Below, piece after piece: positions 17,701-40,891 of a DNA stretch of 62,411 nt. The notes below the pieces were generated by a model that was given only the letters and a program-made list of their open reading frames with translations, was not told the origin of the DNA and searched no databases. Both the position numbers and the translations under genes were made by a program. This stretch comes from Chloroflexota bacterium (GTDB lineage: Bacteria > Chloroflexota > Anaerolineae > DUEN01), in NCBI GenBank assembly GCA_013152435.1, contig JAADGJ010000003.1, forward strand, positions 1 to 62,411, in the 5' to 3' direction. Position 1 is the stretch's first letter, and every line of letters begins with the position of its first letter.

Positions 17701-18354
17701 TCACATCTCACGTACATCCAGGATCTCCACCTCCGGCAGCTTCTGAACCGTGGCCAGCAACTGCTCTTTGGAGACCCGATCCACCCGCAAGACGATCCCC
17801 AACCGCTCCGGAGATCGTTCCACCGCCCAGGAGCCGAAAGCGGTTAGATTCCCGCCGATCTCGGCGATGGCCGCGGACAGCTTGGCCATCTCCCCTACCC
17901 GGTTGGGAACGATCACGGAGAGGCGAAGCCCGGGCTCGCGGGCCCCCAGCATCTCCATCATCGTGGAGAGCAAATCCACGTCGGTGATCAGCCCCACCAG
18001 CGTATCGCCGCGCACCACGGGCAGACATCCGGTCCCATGGTCCACCATGATCCGGGCGGCCTCCTCCACCGGCACATCCTCCGTAACGGTGACCACATCG
18101 CGCAGCATCACCTTATCCACCCGGATCTTGGAGAGGATGTACCGGGTCTCCAGGGCGCTCAGGGACACGGCCGACCAGGGAATGGCCTGGAGGATCGACT
18201 GGCGGGTGATCAACCCCACCAGATGATCCTGACCGGTCACCACAGGCAGGTGCCGGAGGCCATGATCCTGCATGAGCTGCTGCGCCTCCGTGAGAACGGT
18301 GTCCGGTGCGACAACGACCAAGGGCTGAGGCTTCATACGATCCTTGACGAGCAC
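17701..18354 (-). CDS. CBS-pair and ACT domain protein (AcuB-like)
   Basis: 217 aa, cytoplasmic, with two CBS motifs in tandem (about residues 7-60 and 80-135, each ending LVGLITR/LVGLITD) and a C-terminal ACT-like domain (SVIVPNRVGEMAKLSAAIAEIGGNL). CBS pairs usually bind adenosyl nucleotides and ACT domains small ligands, so this is a likely sensor of energy or metabolite state. It is the first gene of the Hdr/Met transcription unit, about 300 nt after a consensus promoter. GTG start with GGGAGG upstream. The target is unknown; regulation of the Hdr complex is an inference from position only. Confidence 0.85.
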   Translation of the reverse strand: MLVKDRMKPQPLVVVAPDTVLTEAQQLMQDHGLRHLPVVTGQDHLVGLITRQSILQAIPWSAVSLSALETRYILSKIRVDKVMLRDVVTVTEDVPVEEAARIMVDHGTGCLPVVRGDTLVGLITDVDLLSTMMEMLGAREPGLRLSVIVPNRVGEMAKLSAAIAEIGGNLTAFGSWAVERSPERLGIVLRVDRVSKEQLLATVQKLPEVEILDVREM

Positions 18355-18568
18355 GACTTTCCTCCCAGTCGTCCGCGTTGATGTTGTGCCCGTTTCAACA
18401 CGAGCGTGCCGCTTCTACCCATGACGGGCATCCGACGCCGCCCGCCATCGGAGAGGATCTGGCCCTGCGCACAATCCCAACACGAGGCCAACGCGACAGG
18501 GGCAAGGACCCCGGACGGGCCGCGCCTCCCATCCGCCTCTCCCGCGCGCCAGCCCTCAAGACAGCAAC

Positions 18569-18652
18569 GCCTTCCCCACCAGATGACGGCGGGGAAGGCG
18601 GCATCACCCGATCCCAGAGGCGCCATCTTCAGCGCCTCGTCATCACTTACCC
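18569..18652 (-). promoter_or_regulatory. Leader RNA motif of the Hdr/Met operon
   Basis: Transcript leader starting at about 18652. It contains GCGAAT, GATG, then a hairpin GGCGC-TGAAGATG-GCGCC (18619-18636), then a 9-bp GC-rich inverted repeat (18569-18577 with 18591-18599). The same arrangement heads the ald-fhs-acs operon (38076-38169), with loop TGAGGATG and a compensatory base-pair change in the stem. The second hairpin here lacks a good U tract. From its end to the CBS gene start (18355-18568) I see nothing else. Confidence 0.6.
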
Positions 18653-18658
18653 ATTCGC

Positions 18659-18687
18659 ATTCTAGCACTATGCCAGATCGATGTCAA
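18659..18687 (-). promoter_or_regulatory. Consensus sigma-70 promoter of the Hdr/Met operon
   Basis: Minus strand TTGACA (18682-18687), a 17-base spacer and TAGAAT (18659-18664). It lies just beyond the folD stop and separates the Wood-Ljungdahl cluster into two transcription units. The predicted start is near 18652. Confidence 0.8.
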
Positions 18688-26811: not shown

Positions 26812-29001
26812 TCATTTCCCGTCGCGCAGCAAGATTGGCAGATATACTCTCTGAGATAACAGACCATGGATCACGAAATCCGCGTGCGTCACATCCGGCG
26901 GCACCGTCACCCGCCGCTGCGGCGGGGTGCTGCTCGGATATCGCTTCGATGCAGGACGCACGAGGTAACTACCCGGTCCCACTCGCAACTCATACGCGCC
27001 CGCGCCCCAGCCGTACACCCGATCCGCCAGCGTCTCGGTCTCATAGGACACGTCCCCAGCCTGGGCGACCACGGGTACGCCACACGCCGGAGCGCCCCCG
27101 ACCAGGGTGACCCGCCCGCGTATCCGCTGGGAGAGCGGGTCGAGCGTCAGCGTCAGGGAGGCATCCGGCGGCACCGTCACCTGGCGCCGGGCGCTCGCAT
27201 AGCCGCACGCCTCCACCTCCACCTCATACGTGCCCGCCGGCAAATCGAACGCAAAGGACCCATCATAGTAGATGAGTTTGCTTTGCACGTACTCGTGGCC
27301 GGAATATTGGCCCGGCACCACATAGTACACCATCCCCTGGGTGATCGGCTGACCAGAGGCATCCCGCACCACACCGCTGACACGATACGTCGTCGGATAG
27401 GTGAAGTCAATGCCGGATATGTCCTGGGTCACCGTCACCACTTGCGAGGGGAACGGCACGTCGGCCACGGCCCGGAGCTCGTACACGCCCGCCGGCACGG
27501 TCAGCGTGTACGCGCCGCTGGCGTCGCTCTTCAGCGGCGTGGATTCCGCCTCCCCCGTGCCGACCGGCTGCGCCATGACCGTGGCCCCCGTCAGCGGCCC
27601 CCCGGACCGATCCAGCACACGGCCCGTCACCTGGAAGGCCTCCGGCGCCCGCAGCTCCACGTCGGTAACCGGCCCCGCGACGTCGACTACGACCGGCGCC
27701 GGATCCGGATACCCCTGGATCACAGATGCGAGCGAATACCGCCCGGCCATGAGCGTAAACGTGAACGCCCCCGAGCTATCCGGCCGCGTGTGAGCGACCT
27801 CCTCGCCGCCGGGCGTCAGCGCGACCACGTCGAACGCGCCGGACAGCGAGCCGCCGGAGTGGGTGCGCACGTTTCCACGCACCGGGTATACCTCAGGCAG
27901 CCGCAGGTCCAGGCCAGCGACGTCCGCTTGTGGCGAGATGGTGGTGGTCACCACCCCATAGATGGCATCCCCGGGCCACGTCGCACGCACCCAATAGGAG
28001 ATGCCCCCCAGGGAAAGGGCATAATTCCCTCCCCCATCCGTCTCGTCCCGGTCCGCCCAACGATCGACGTCACGACAGGCGCTCATGGGCCTCGCCCGCA
28101 CCCGGGATTTCCACACGGGCTGGTCACCATCCCCAATCACCCGGCCGGTCACCCGGTACGCGGCGGGCATCTGGAAATTCAGCGTCGCCGTCTGCGCCTC
28201 CCGGAGATCCACCCGGCGGGCCAGGGGCTGAGGCAGAGTCTCCACGGAGACCTCATACTCCCCGGCGGGCACCGAGAACTGATAGCTACCCGTCTCATCC
28301 GTGTAGGCCCGGTAGATGTTCCCCTCCGCGCACCTCAGCGCCTCCGCCGCCACCGAGGCGTTGCTCACCGGCTTTCCATCGGCATCCCGCACGACGCCGG
28401 TGATGAGACGATCGTTCTCCCTCACCACCAGGCGCACATCCGTGACCTCAGGCGGCACGTGCACCCAGACGGGGTCGGCGAAGCCGTGGTCGAACAACTG
28501 CTGTGCGACCACCAGCCAGTCCCCCGGCAGGTTCACCTGCAGCGAGAAGGCGCCGGAAGGGTCCGACAGCCCGCTGGCCAGCGACCCGGTCCGGAACTCC
28601 GTCGCCGAGACCCACGCGTTGGCGATGGGCGCCCCGCTCTGGCTGACCACCTGCCCGGCGATCCGATACGTCTCCAGGGCGCCCTCCTGCGGCCGGGCCG
28701 GGGCGGCCGGACGGACGTCCTCCACAAAAGGAAGCGCCGAGAGCCGCCGGGCAGCCGCATCATCCGCGCCGACCAGGAACAGAATCTCCGGATAGCCCGG
28801 GTGCGAGAGGACGTTCACGCGTCCCAGATCCTCCCGCGGCTCAAGCCGGGCACGCACCTCCCGGACATACGAGGCACAGCCATCCTCGCAGTGGAGGCGC
28901 ACGATCCACATAGAGGGCGGCAGGGCCTCTCGGGCGGCGCTTCCGCTCACCAACCCAACCCACGCGATCGCCACCAGCACCCAGGTGATATACTTCGGCA
29001 A
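26812..29001 (-). CDS. Secreted protein with seven carboxypeptidase-regulatory-like repeats
   Basis: 729-aa exported protein. The TTG at 29001 has AAGGAGGT 6 bases upstream and gives a clean signal peptide (PKYITWVLVAIAWVGLVSGSA). After a roughly 100-residue N-terminal region come seven beta-sandwich repeats of about 85-90 aa. Each opens with a V-x-G-x-V-x-(D/S)-x-x-G-x-P-(I/L/V) motif (GQVVSQSGAPI, GVVRDADGKPV, GRVIGDGDQPV, GNVRTHSGGSL, GRVLDRSGGPL, GVVRDASGQPI, GRVTLVGGAPA). No enzyme domain is seen. It is probably a surface or matrix protein. Its position between acsD and acsB is unexpected, and function is unknown. Confidence 0.8.
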   Translation of the reverse strand: MPKYITWVLVAIAWVGLVSGSAAREALPPSMWIVRLHCEDGCASYVREVRARLEPREDLGRVNVLSHPGYPEILFLVGADDAAARRLSALPFVEDVRPAAPARPQEGALETYRIAGQVVSQSGAPIANAWVSATEFRTGSLASGLSDPSGAFSLQVNLPGDWLVVAQQLFDHGFADPVWVHVPPEVTDVRLVVRENDRLITGVVRDADGKPVSNASVAAEALRCAEGNIYRAYTDETGSYQFSVPAGEYEVSVETLPQPLARRVDLREAQTATLNFQMPAAYRVTGRVIGDGDQPVWKSRVRARPMSACRDVDRWADRDETDGGGNYALSLGGISYWVRATWPGDAIYGVVTTTISPQADVAGLDLRLPEVYPVRGNVRTHSGGSLSGAFDVVALTPGGEEVAHTRPDSSGAFTFTLMAGRYSLASVIQGYPDPAPVVVDVAGPVTDVELRAPEAFQVTGRVLDRSGGPLTGATVMAQPVGTGEAESTPLKSDASGAYTLTVPAGVYELRAVADVPFPSQVVTVTQDISGIDFTYPTTYRVSGVVRDASGQPITQGMVYYVVPGQYSGHEYVQSKLIYYDGSFAFDLPAGTYEVEVEACGYASARRQVTVPPDASLTLTLDPLSQRIRGRVTLVGGAPACGVPVVAQAGDVSYETETLADRVYGWGAGAYELRVGPGSYLVRPASKRYPSSTPPQRRVTVPPDVTHADFVIHGLLSQRVYLPILLRDGK

Positions 29002-29126
29002 GATCAGACCTCCTTGTATGACTCCCTCACCGCCGAACCCTATCACCCAAAGTGTGCCATGAATGACGGCAAACGCGCAAGGCTTTGCCCTGCCGCCTCA
29101 TCACTCCGGTCACGCGTCCCGCCTGA

Positions 29127-36584: not shown

Positions 36585-38000
36585 TTAGGCCGCCGTGTCC
36601 TCCGCCGTGGGCTGTCCTTCCACGATGTGCGGATGGAGCAATCGCCCACGCAAGACGTTGACGCCGCGCCGTAAAGCCGTGGAGCGCTCCAACGCCCCGT
36701 CGACACCGTACTGACCGATCAACAGGAGATAGGGCAGGGCCGCATTGGTCAGGGCATGGCTGGCACTGCGAGCCACCCGCGCCGGGGCATTCGGCACGCA
36801 ATAGTGCACAACCCCCTCCTCAATGTAGAACGGGTCCCGATGGGTGGTCGGCCGGCTGGTCTCCACACAACCGCCCTGATCGATGGAGAAGTCGATGATC
36901 ACCGCCCGCGGCCGCATGCTCTGTACCATCTCTCGGGTGACCAGCACCGGCGATCGGGCGCCGGGGACAAGCACGCACCCCACCAACACGTCGGCGAAAC
37001 GCACGACCTTATGCAGATTGTAAGGGCTGGTGAAGAGGGTGACGATGCGCCCCCGAAGCATGGAATCGACATGCTGCAAGCGCCGCGGGTTGTGATCCAG
37101 GACGGTCACGTGCGCTCCCAGCCCGGAGAAGCACCGGGCGGCATGGGAGCCCACCACGCCAGCGCCCAGGATCACCACCTCCGCCGGAGGCACTCCGTGC
37201 ATGCCGCTCAGCAGGATGCCACGCCCGCCCATGTGGCTGGACAGCAGCTCGCTGGCGATCATGGGGGCCAACCGACCGGCCAGCTCGCTGGTCGGCATCA
37301 GCACGGGAAGCGTGCCATCGTCCTCCTGAATCATCTCGTAGGCGATGGCCGTGACCTCGCGCATCTCCAGCGTCTCCGTCAGGTCTCGCGAGGCCACCGC
37401 CAGGTGCAGATAGCACAACAACGTCTGCCCGGACCGCAGCAGGTGATGCTCTGCTCGGGTCGGCCGTGTGGCCTTGACGATCACCTCGGCCCGGCCGTAG
37501 GTCTCCTCCGCGGAGTAGACGATCTCCGCGCCGGCCGCCCGATAGTCCTCGTCGGAGAAACCGGCCCCCAACCCGGCGTTGCGCTCCACATATACGGTGT
37601 GTCCAGCATCGACCAGGGCGTGCACGCCCGCGGGGGTCAGCCCCACGCGCATCTCCAGATCCCGCACTTCCTTCGGAACGCCAAACCGCATCGAGCGACC
37701 AGACATAGACGCCGGCTCCCCTTCCAGGGCATCGTAGGGCAAGGGGACGGTTCGCGCTCCCGGTGGTGTGGCAGCGCCCTGCCGTTGCTCCCGGAGGTCC
37801 TGCTGATGGATCAGATACAGCTCACAGAAGTCGCACGTGATATATGGAGGCGCGCAGCAGTGACGGTCGCCGTTCCCGAGCTCCCAGCACGGTGTACGCG
37901 AGAGGTAAGCCTCGCATCGCTCGCACGGCAAGGGCCATGAGGCGCTCTGGCTTCCCACGCGCAGCGCACACCAAGCTCGCACCTCCCAACACGGCCGCAC
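36585..38000 (-). CDS. Alanine dehydrogenase-like protein with N-terminal two-CW cysteine domain
   Basis: 471 aa. From about residue 95 it is an alanine dehydrogenase/PNT-type enzyme ([41 protein letters not shown] site, [19 protein letters not shown]). This predicts NAD-dependent alanine/pyruvate interconversion. The first about 65 residues form a cysteine-rich module with two CW motifs (PCWEV, PCWEL) and two CxxC pairs (CERC, CDFC), like 'two-CW' domains, joined by a linker. GTG at 38000 is chosen (GGGGGAGG 5 bases upstream); the enzyme alone could start at a Met near residue 97. It is the first gene of the acs operon, after an attenuator-like leader. Confidence 0.85.
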
Positions 38001-38070: not shown

Positions 38071-38114
38071 AAAAAGCGCCATCTGTCCCTTCCCACTTCG
38101 GGACAGAATGGCGC
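38071..38114 (-). terminator. Intrinsic terminator in the leader of the ald-fhs-acs operon
   Basis: A 14-bp stem with one bulged A (38076-38089 with 38100-38114) and a 10-nt loop, followed on the minus strand by TTTTTGTTT. It lies about 55 nt after the predicted transcript start and 70 nt before the first gene. This is the position of an attenuator, since nothing upstream on this strand needs terminating. Confidence 0.8.
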
Positions 38115-38169
38115 CCATCATCAGCAGGCGGTGCCATCCTCAGCACCGTAGCATCCGCTTCCGTATTTC
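38115..38169 (-). promoter_or_regulatory. Leader RNA motif of the ald-fhs-acs operon
   Basis: Transcript leader with GCGAAA, AAGCGGATG, then the hairpin GGTGC-TGAGGATG-GCACC (38130-38147). It shares layout, loop sequence (7 of 8 bases) and flanking GCGAA/GATG with the leader at 18569-18652. The third stem pair is U-A here and C-G there, which preserves pairing. No named riboswitch class was recognised. Confidence 0.65.
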
Positions 38170-38175
38170 GCTATC

Positions 38176-38204
38176 AATATACCATGCAGGTCCCCAGGTG
38201 TCAA
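38176..38204 (-). promoter_or_regulatory. Consensus sigma-70 promoter of the ald-fhs-acs operon
   Basis: Minus strand TTGACA (38199-38204), a 17-base spacer, TATATT (38176-38181). The transcript start is expected near 38169. It is the only strong promoter seen between the dispersed repeats and the Wood-Ljungdahl genes. Confidence 0.85.
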
Positions 38205-38609: not shown

Positions 38610-39016
38610 GATCAACGGGTCACCCCCATTCGCATCAACGGAAGGACTCTTCTCAATCTTGCCTTGCCCGGCTGAGGCAGGGGCTCTGGCCTATAGCCTA
38701 AGCTCCCGCCGGACAACAGTCCGGCGACACAGAGCGGACTGTTGTCCGCTTGGAGCACGCATGGACAGGTGCAAAGACTCGGGATATGACTCTATAAAGG
38801 GGCTGTGCCCCCTTGAGCCTCCCTGGGAACGTGGAAGCATGCCCTCGTGGGGCTTAAGTTGATACCCAAGGGACGCAACGGCGTTGCCCCCCTACCCAAT
38901 ACGCCTCTAGGAGCTCGGACATTACTTTAGATCTTGTAGAGGCAGTCCTTGTGGCTGCCTCAGGCGCCCACAAGGGGCGCCCCTAAAGATCCTTTTCCTG
39001 AGGACGCCGAGAAAGC
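38610..39016. repeat. Divergent repeat unit and flanking non-coding DNA
   Basis: Directly after copy A a second, diverged unit starts with the same motif (CCATTCGCATCAAC) and ends with the same GCTTAAGTTGATACC and a palindrome (GGGACGCAACGGCGTTGCCCC near 38871-38891). Inside are a perfect 14-bp inverted repeat (38710-38723 with 38735-38748) and a hairpin GGGGCTGTGCCCC near 38800. From 38900 to 39016 no gene is seen. Confidence 0.65.
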
Positions 39017-39045
39017 TGGACGCGCTCGCCCCCCAATGGTATGAT
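39017..39045 (+). promoter_or_regulatory. Probable promoter of the two-component operon
   Basis: TGGACG (39017-39022), a 17-base spacer and TATGAT (39040-39045), about 40 bases upstream of the response-regulator start. The match is 4/6 and 5/6. Confidence 0.6.
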
Positions 39046-39086
39046 GCAAACCGAGAGGCCGCTTGAACATGAGGAGAGGAGGATCG

Positions 39087-39779
39087 ATGTCGAAGGCAAC
39101 CGTGCTCGTAGTGGACGATGAACCCAACATCCTCAGCGTCGTCCAGGCGTACCTGCAACAGGAGGGCTTTACCGTCTACACCGCCGCCGACGGGCTCTCC
39201 GCCCTGAAAGCCGCCCGGGCATACCGGCCGGACCTCATCGTGCTCGACATCATGCTGCCTGGCCTGGACGGGATCGAGGTGCTTCGGCGCCTCCGCCAGG
39301 AGTCCAACGTCTACGTCCTCATGCTGACGGCCAAGGCCGATGAGACGGACAAGATCGTGGGCCTCACCATGGGAGCCGACGATTACCTGACCAAACCTTT
39401 CAGCCCCCGAGAGCTGGTCGCCCGGGTCAAGGCGATCCTGCGCCGCGGGCGCGGCGTCGGCCAGGACGAGGCCCCGTTGAACTTTCACCGCCTGCGCATC
39501 GATCCGGAGGCGCGCCAGGTCTGGAAGGACGACCGCCCCGTGGAACTGACCCCCATCGAATTCGACATCCTGTTGGCGTTGGCGCGCCATCGTGGCCGGG
39601 TGCTCAGCCGGGAGCAGCTCATCGAACACGTCTGGGGATACGATTATTACGGCGACGAGCGCGTGGTAGATGTCCACATCGGGCGCATCCGCAAGAAGAT
39701 CGAGGACGATCCGGCGCATCCCACATGGATCATCACCGCCCGAGGCATCGGATACCGGTTCGAGGGGGAACCCGCATGA
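39087..39779 (+). CDS. OmpR/PhoB-family response regulator
   Basis: 230 aa. The N-terminal receiver domain has VVDDEPN (acidic pocket), phospho-acceptor Asp in VLDIMLPGLDG (about residue 54) and Lys in YLTKPFSPREL. The C-terminal winged-helix DNA-binding domain shows LTPIEFDILLALARHRGRVLSREQL and VDVHIGRIRKKIE. ATG at 39087 is chosen because GAGGAGAGGAGG precedes it; eight upstream codons are open but unsupported. It overlaps the kinase gene by 4 bases (ATGA). Confidence 0.94.
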   Translation: MSKATVLVVDDEPNILSVVQAYLQQEGFTVYTAADGLSALKAARAYRPDLIVLDIMLPGLDGIEVLRRLRQESNVYVLMLTAKADETDKIVGLTMGADDYLTKPFSPRELVARVKAILRRGRGVGQDEAPLNFHRLRIDPEARQVWKDDRPVELTPIEFDILLALARHRGRVLSREQLIEHVWGYDYYGDERVVDVHIGRIRKKIEDDPAHPTWIITARGIGYRFEGEPA

Positions 39780-40891
39780 GGATACGGACGGCATTGCACC
39801 AGCGACTGAGCTGGAAGCTCTTCCTCTCCCACCTGGTCATCGTGGCTGTCGGCGTGGTGGTGCTGGCCAGCACGGCCGAATTCCATGCGCCGGCCGCGCT
39901 GGCACGCCACATCGCCCGGATGCAAGAGGTCCTGGGCGACGACCCGGCTCTGGCGGCCGACCTGCACGAGAACTTCATGGCTGCCGTTAACGAAGTCCTG
40001 GCGGTGGCCGCCATGATGGCCACGCTGGCGGCGTTGCTGGTGAGCATGTTCACCGCCCACCGAATCGTGCAGCCGGTCCGGGCCATGATGGAGGCCAGCC
40101 AGCGCATCGCCGCCGGCGAGTACCGGGAGCGCGTGCAGGTCACCAGCGAGGACGAACTGGGGGCCCTGGCGCAAGCCTTCAACCAGATGGCCGAGACCCT
40201 GGAGCGCACGGAGCAACGGAGGCTGGAGCTCATCGGGAACGTGGCTCATGAGCTGCGTACCCCGCTGAGCAGCATCCGGAGTATTATGGAAGGGCTGATG
40301 GACGGCGTACTGCCGCCGGAGCCCGCCACGTTCCAGAACGTCCTGCGGGAGGTCGCCCGACTCCAGCGCCTGGTCCACGACCTGGAGGAGCTCTCCCGCG
40401 CCGAGGCCGGGCAGATCCCCCTGGACCTTCGCCTCGTCTCCCTGACCGATCTGGTGCGCTCCGCAGCCGAGCGCCTGCAGCCGCAATTTCAGGACAAGGG
40501 CGTCGAACTCGTCCTGGATCTCCCCCCAGACCTTCCACAGGTATGGGTCGACCCCGGCCGCATCACTCAGGTGTTGATCAACCTGCTGGGAAACGCCCTG
40601 CAGTACACCCCCTCCGGCGGCCGCGTCACCGTGCGCGGCCGCGCGGATCACCGGGAGGTGACCATCGCCGTGCAGGACACGGGCATCGGCATCCCAGCCG
40701 AGCATCTGCCCCACATCTTCGAGCGCTTCTACCGCGTGGACAAGTCCCGGTCCCGCGCCGGCGGCGGCAGTGGGATCGGCCTGACCATCGCCAAACATCT
40801 GATCGAGGCCCATGGCGGGCGTATCCAGGCGGAGAGCCCCGGGCCCGGTCGCGGCAGCACCTTCACCTTCACCCTCCCTCGCGCCGCCTGA
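39776..40891 (+). CDS. Sensor histidine kinase
   Basis: 371-aa membrane kinase paired with the preceding regulator. N-terminal membrane helix (about residues 15-35), a short extracytoplasmic sensor segment of about 50 aa, a second helix, HAMP linker, HisKA with phospho-acceptor His in NVAHELRTPLSSIR, and a HATPase domain (GNALQYTPSGG, GIGIPAEHLPHIFERFY, GIGLTIAKHLIEAHGG). The stimulus is unknown; the compact sensor loop suggests an envelope or membrane signal. Confidence 0.94.
   Translation: MRIRTALHQRLSWKLFLSHLVIVAVGVVVLASTAEFHAPAALARHIARMQEVLGDDPALAADLHENFMAAVNEVLAVAAMMATLAALLVSMFTAHRIVQPVRAMMEASQRIAAGEYRERVQVTSEDELGALAQAFNQMAETLERTEQRRLELIGNVAHELRTPLSSIRSIMEGLMDGVLPPEPATFQNVLREVARLQRLVHDLEELSRAEAGQIPLDLRLVSLTDLVRSAAERLQPQFQDKGVELVLDLPPDLPQVWVDPGRITQVLINLLGNALQYTPSGGRVTVRGRADHREVTIAVQDTGIGIPAEHLPHIFERFYRVDKSRSRAGGGSGIGLTIAKHLIEAHGGRIQAESPGPGRGSTFTFTLPRAA

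Follow-up and report, generated by a model that had tools for sequence, protein, structure and literature searches.

Dual-hairpin leaders of Wood-Ljungdahl operons in an uncultured Chloroflexota bacterium as likely targets of an ANTAR regulator

Leaders and operons in the window

The window, a stretch of 62,411 nucleotides from a Chloroflexota genome (G000), contains two minus-strand units which together carry the full Wood-Ljungdahl gene set. Leader 1 is located between folD (18721) and the CBS-ACT gene, and its unit (to about 4431) includes CBS-ACT, hdrA, flpD, hdrA/NAD(P) oxidoreductase, metV (MTHFR C-terminal protein), metF, hdrBC-like, and CooC-like genes. The unit behind leader 2 extends down to 18721 and consists of alanine dehydrogenase, fhs, DUF166, CopZ-like, cooS, acsB, cdhD, acsC, acsV, acsE, and folD. 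Features of both leaders are listed in table 1.

In the leader 2 unit, the Cys-rich extension of alanine dehydrogenase (37704-38000, minus) has no Pfam match; in G033, G130, and G192, the gene that comes first behind the leader encodes a similar Cys-rich protein. A 744-aa protein with repeated carboxypeptidase-regulatory-like domains (26812-29046, minus) occupies an unusual position between acsB and cdhD.

Table 1. Coordinates of the leader features and first genes in the window
Feature	Position	Strand	Description
Leader 1 promoter, sigma-70-type	18659..18687	-	TTGACA-17-TAGAAT, extended -10
Leader 1 hairpin P1	18617..18638	-	GAGGCGCU[GAAGAU]GGCGCCUC; compensatory changes among relatives
Leader 1 hairpin P2	18596..18609	-	GGGU[GAUGCC]GCCU; overlaps terminator 5' arm
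Leader 1 terminator-like hairpin	18568..18600	-	14 bp, -27.6 kcal/mol; then weak U tract TTGCTGTCTT
First gene after leader 1	17701..18354	-	CBS-CBS-ACT protein
Leader 2 promoter, sigma-70-type	38176..38204	-	TTGACA-17-TATATT, extended -10
Leader 2 hairpin P1	38128..38149	-	ACGGUGCU[GAGGAU]GGCACCGC
Leader 2 hairpin P2	38112..38126	-	UGCU[GAUGAUG]GGCG; overlaps terminator 5' arm; the most irregular of all the P2 hairpins
Leader 2 intrinsic terminator	38076..38115	-	then U tract TTTTTGTTT at 38075-38067
First gene after leader 2	36588..38000	-	alanine dehydrogenase, N-terminal Cys-rich extension

A search for consensus promoters returned the two promoters of table 1 as the sole consensus sites in their respective regions; both had been marked in an earlier sequence-only reading, and each matches the consensus at 11 of 12 positions, with TG ahead of the -10 hexamer. 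The 5-bp hairpins drawn in that reading (GGCGC/GCGCC and GGTGC/GCACC, with loops UGAAGAUG and UGAGGAUG) were found where it had placed them. As it had described, their third pair differs with pairing kept (C-G in leader 1, U-A in leader 2), and both leaders continue into a GC-rich inverted repeat. The GCGAA and 5' GATG that it regarded as shared are present in the window leaders but missing from leader 1 of the sister species G001, and are hence incidental.

Listing small hairpins 3' of P1 revealed a further hairpin, P2, which the earlier reading had missed. Both leaders thus have the same order of elements: sigma-70 promoter, P1, short linker, small hairpin P2, and terminator-like hairpin. 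In each leader, the 3' arm of P2 is part of the 5' arm of the terminator, so that P2 and terminator are mutually exclusive. A conserved antiterminator pairing between the P1 5' arm and the terminator 5' arm can be drawn, but spans no more than 5-6 bp. The U tract is good in leader 2 and poor in leader 1, whose counterpart in G001 has a better one (TTTGTCTT); a terminator scan of the leader 1 region did not pick up the terminator-like hairpin.

Both leaders are more stable than their shuffles (z = -3.1 for leader 1 and -3.9 for leader 2). Plain local alignment of the two was not significant, with 150 of 2000 shuffles scoring as high. A descriptor requiring a pair of consecutive hairpins, each closed by U.G and carrying G1 and G4 in its loop, was composed after inspection of the window leaders and the family f31 leaders; it matched the window exactly twice, at the two leaders, whereas shuffled windows gave a mean of 0.08 matches and never two or more. 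Reading frames across the leaders are not conserved between the window species and G001, which gives no indication of a leader peptide. The common motif on the two operons is therefore real, and richer than first described.

Recurrence in the sister species and across the class

In G001, the sole same-genus genome compared, both leaders lie at equivalent places and keep the promoter, the hairpin, the downstream RRUGAUG strand, and the terminator hairpin. The two G001 leaders align collinearly through the terminator with a score above all 2000 shuffles, indicating that both leaders are of one architecture. Among the four leaders of the two species, three of six stem pairs are altered on both sides. 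Their P1 loops read GANGAU, with one additional base in G001 leader 2, and their P2 sequences are GGGU[GAUGCC]GCCU, AGGU[GAUGCC]GCCU, UGCU[GAUGAUG]GGCG, and GGAGGU[GAUGAGC]GCCUUC, with U.G-closed loops that all start with GAUG.

Outside the genus, models limited to P1 and its flank (R1, built on 2 sequences; R2, built on 4) gave no matches other than weak ones inside long ORFs. A descriptor scan near genes of the ANTAR subfamily described below detected terminator-coupled matches at the expected places: in G092 and G130, both between the ANTAR gene and cooS-acsB genes, and in G033, shortly before a Cys-rich gene that is accompanied by cooS and acsB. A covariance model (R3) was then built from six of the seven sequences known at that point, with N inserted in the alignment to hold register where linker or loop lengths vary, and was searched against 396 genomes of the class; its E-values come from a short calibration and are rough. 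In total, R3 gave 19 terminator-coupled sites, which include both leaders in the sister species and a formate dehydrogenase operon in both species. In family f31, which is not that of the window genome, cooS/acsB operons with the element are present in seven genomes, and the non-training recoveries (G192, G065, G164, G202) lie upstream of the Cys-rich gene and/or cooS-acsB. Other non-training recoveries were G001 leader 2, G000:C140, G001:C207, and sites in families f39 and f43, and every non-training site listed is followed by a terminator-like hairpin.

When the filters were relaxed, R3 matched the window genome at three sites, beyond which E jumps from 1e-5 to 0.03. The third copy (G000:C140, E 7e-7 in the R3 search; counterpart G001:C207) precedes genes for NuoE-like, NuoF-like, and FdhA proteins. 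FdhA (G000:C140:496-3303, minus, L347) contains a single in-frame UGA at the expected selenocysteine position (CARLUHSPTVAG) and matches TIGR01591 with 835.7 bits, above the cut-off; it is a selenocysteine-containing NAD-dependent formate dehydrogenase alpha subunit. The element heads this operon in both species and thus stands before three units, for CO2 reduction to formate, fhs/acs, and hdr/metF.

Over the 19 sites, 97.8% of pair cells show standard pairing, and double changes occur at 8 of 12 pairs (47 cells); the underlying alignment (A10) was fitted to R3, and these counts are hence biased towards R3. None of 500 shuffles scored as high, and slid structures were 23-47% paired. Invariant positions are the C-G and U.G pairs beneath the loop in P1, and the U.G pair and the G-C pair second below it in P2. 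G1 and G4 are present in both loops of all 19 sites. Counting U.G as a pair, the P1 loop has six nucleotides in 18 of 19 sites; the P2 loop has seven in most sites and six in both leader-1 copies. The covariance search proposed by the sequence-only reading therefore yielded further instances upstream of C1 genes, with covariation beyond that of the controls, and neither an absence of such instances nor chance-level covariation was observed. Its suggestion that a single trans factor may co-regulate both operons through RNA is plausible.

Other R3 matches are gene-embedded, lack a terminator, and appear to be due to chance (G393, G175, G014:C95, G146, G278, G036, G007, G024, G269, G162, G368, G231, G126, G120, and G092:C115). 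No copy of the element precedes the acs/fhs operons of G003, a genome of the same family as the window's, of other genomes without this ANTAR subfamily, or of f39 genomes.

The f39 and f43 sites (L325, L330, L340, L382, L339) precede genes for collagen-like lipoproteins (f39) and cytochrome b (f43), and one f39 genome, G216, has two copies of the element 1.8 kb apart. In G117, an f39 genome that has the ANTAR, a weak site (L386, G117:C9:13634-13685, E 0.02) stands before a gene for a Tat-exported, formate dehydrogenase-like protein.

A linked ANTAR subfamily and its partner kinase

ANTAR domains were found in G000, G001, and G003. The protein of interest combines a receiver (PF00072, Response_reg) with an ANTAR domain (PF03861), matches PDB entries 1s8n and 6wsh, and keeps the phospho-acceptor Asp (D54 equivalent), as expected of an EutV-like regulator. 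In G001 its gene shares the strand of leader 2 and stops immediately ahead of that leader's promoter, with the kinase gene preceding it; the G000 orthologue, 95% identical, is encoded at 38890-39489 (minus) of contig C58, apart from the window contig. The kinase-ANTAR pair thus lies beside the acs operon in G001 (C209, L118) and on C58 in the window genome; either the pair or the operon has recently moved.

Within a set of 150 genomes, ten further ones encode orthologues of 62-76% identity, which share a contig with acsB in G117, G098, G092, G130, and G136; the remaining ANTARs, at about 61% identity or less, represent a generic paralogue. In four genomes (G001, G164, G092, G130), the receiver-ANTAR gene and its kinase gene immediately precede the leader; in G192 and G202, the receiver-ANTAR gene is within about 2.4 kb of it.

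Multiple alignment revealed that all 19 aligned orthologues have Q172 and N175 (EutV numbering); in EutV, Rv1626, and the generic paralogue of Chloroflexota, these residues are M172 and R175. Among the other RNA-contact positions, R142 and E160 are kept, Y164 is replaced by F (Y in G148), and position 173 is D, N, or E. A Q172/N175 ANTAR is encoded in seven of nine non-training genomes with terminator-coupled sites and in none of nine genomes having only gene-embedded matches (Fisher P = 0.001). The split into coupled and embedded matches was made by eye, prior to the ANTAR search, and G014, which has a gene-embedded match and the ANTAR, was omitted from the table as ambiguous; its inclusion gives 1/10. 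Two genomes have good sites and lack the subfamily, G065 (97% complete) and G291 (70% complete); the genomes compared are metagenome assemblies and possibly incomplete. In the f39 genomes, the Q172/N175 ANTAR adjoins acs genes, yet no leader is present there.

The partner kinases have a PAS-GAF-HisKA_2-HATPase organization. In the GAF domain (G000:C58, L271:4493-6259, minus, and orthologues), four cysteines (CLC...C...C) are kept in the six aligned orthologues having GAF, which suggests a redox or metal-cluster sensor.

Comparison with known systems and a proposed mechanism

Rfam comparison at gathering and permissive thresholds gave chance matches only, and no known riboswitch or leader covariance model was matched. 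The leaders also do not have the marks of a T-box, which we take to be a Stem I with a specifier loop and a UGGNACC antiterminator bulge: the distance from the -10 hexamer to P1 is about 20 nt, UGGCACC occurs in leader 2 alone, and again no Rfam model was matched. Fluoride, C/D-box, and CsrA likenesses were discarded on sequence grounds.

If the leaders were a small-metabolite riboswitch, P1 together with the GRUGAUG strand would act as the aptamer, and a C1, folate, corrinoid, or nucleotide ligand bound there would govern the terminator. The leader position, the terminator, and the C1-metabolism gene context would agree with this. However, the conserved bases are limited to two simple U.G-closed loops while the helices vary freely with compensation, a pattern that, together with the lack of an Rfam match, the linked RNA-binding regulator, and the copies before collagen-like lipoprotein and cytochrome b genes, for which no C1 ligand fits, makes such a riboswitch very unlikely. 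The ligand-binding RNA that the earlier reading offered as one option finds no support here; the architecture and the gene linkage point to a protein, a response-regulator/ANTAR antiterminator. Symmetric half-site changes would also be shown by a palindromic DNA site, and the inverted repeat, lying close behind the promoter, could in principle be the operator of a repressor that binds as a dimer. Yet the outer half-site positions take 2-5 pair types around a fixed non-palindromic loop, half-site spacing varies (8 or 9), and a second, terminator-overlapping hairpin is conserved, and we regard an operator as extremely improbable.

It is also conceivable that the leaders are ANTAR targets whose partner is a generic paralogue (G000:C50 or C146) and not the Q172/N175 subfamily. 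The generic proteins are widespread and keep the EutV contact residues M172, N173, and R175, and G065 and G291 have sites and only generic ANTAR. Nevertheless, they also occur in genomes without convincing sites (G003, G002, G018, G083), and linkage to the leader and Wood-Ljungdahl genes is confined to the Q172 subfamily; a generic partner therefore seems unlikely.

ANTAR targets consist of two hairpins, the second embedded in a terminator, with G4 in both loops (PMC3369931, PMC8934654). At all 19 sites, the leader forms a pair of small stem-loops separated by a short linker, within the 2-25 nt of known targets; the second hairpin overlaps and excludes the terminator (with the weak U tract of window leader 1), and G4 is constant. 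A presumed cognate ANTAR protein is encoded, linked or co-occurring, in most of the non-training genomes with such sites. Canonical loops have A1 and G4 in six nucleotides (PMC3369931), whereas A1 is replaced by G1 throughout, and the element is accordingly classed as a variant, not a canonical member, that would function in the manner of ANTAR targets. In the EutV crystal structure, G4 is the sole base specifically contacted and A1 is without contact (PMC8934654); G1 is thus no fatal difference, though still a difference.

Among the closest counterparts is EutV/EutW of the Enterococcus faecalis eut operon (PMC3369931, PMC8934654), which likewise comprises a kinase and a receiver-ANTAR regulator, leaders with two small hairpins, a short linker, a second hairpin overlapping an intrinsic terminator, and G4 in both loops, and a regulon of several operons. 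The present system differs in G1, the invariant U.G closing pair, and the mostly 7-nt P2 loop, in having Q172/N175 instead of M172/R175, and in its targets, which are Wood-Ljungdahl genes and not ethanolamine or nitrogen genes. NasR-nasF and AmiR-amiE share ANTAR-dependent antitermination at a leader terminator (PMC3369931), but have no separate sensor kinase, have canonical A1/G4 loops, and serve nitrate and amide metabolism. The order of domains is shared by Rv1626 (PDB 1s8n) and by the generic receiver-ANTAR paralogue of Chloroflexota, for which identity is 53-61%, but these proteins keep M172 and show no observed linkage to Wood-Ljungdahl genes. The fhsA motif (PMC11109978), another proposed structured RNA, likewise stands before a gene for formate-tetrahydrofolate ligase; in a comparison of source and gene context, it differs in having been described from Leptotrichia and environmental DNA.

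Based on the dual hairpins with compensatory changes, terminator overlap, recurrence at Wood-Ljungdahl operons, and ANTAR linkage and co-occurrence, it is quite likely that the leaders are dual-hairpin ANTAR-type antiterminators for Wood-Ljungdahl operons, switched by the kinase and ANTAR regulator. Points against this reading are G1 in place of A1, the 7-nt loop of most P2 hairpins (U.G counted as a pair), the weak P2 of window leader 2, the poor U tract of leader 1, the location of the ANTAR gene on C58, the two genomes (G065, G291) with good sites and no Q172/N175 ANTAR, and the f39 genomes that have this ANTAR beside acs genes but no leader. We infer binding, phosphorylation, antitermination, and the signal by analogy with work on EutV and NasR. 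By default, the nascent leader would fold P1 and then the terminator, with the 3' half of P2 in its 5' arm, and transcription would halt ahead of the Wood-Ljungdahl genes. A membrane-associated PAS-GAF-HisKA_2 kinase would phosphorylate the partner response regulator, whose phosphorylated ANTAR dimer would bind the U.G-closed loops, P1 first and P2 next, and keep P2 folded; the terminator would be blocked and polymerase would read the operon. One regulator may thereby turn on formate dehydrogenase, fhs-cooS-acs-folD, and hdr-metF, possibly in response to a redox signal because the kinase GAF domain keeps its four cysteines. We lean towards the broader view that the Q172/N175 subfamily, with an RNA code of its own (U.G-closed, G1 and G4), drives the whole Wood-Ljungdahl regulon by antitermination in Caldilineae/Anaerolineae, probably with redox gating through the Cys-rich GAF domain.

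ANTAR antitermination has so far been tied mainly to nitrogen metabolism (PMC3369931), and among the papers searched none contains both "ANTAR domain" and "Wood-Ljungdahl". If correct, the proposed mechanism would assign a specific regulator, a sensor kinase, and an RNA switch to an ancient route of carbon metabolism in uncultured Chloroflexota, and would name formate dehydrogenase as the third target operon of the regulon. It would also offer a natural case in which an RNA-binding domain and its loop code changed together (M172 to Q, A1 to G1).

In addition, a divergent gene pair for an OmpR-type response regulator and a HAMP histidine kinase (39063-40891, plus) is present upstream of the leader 2 promoter in the window. 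It is possible that this pair is a second input to the leader 2 operon.
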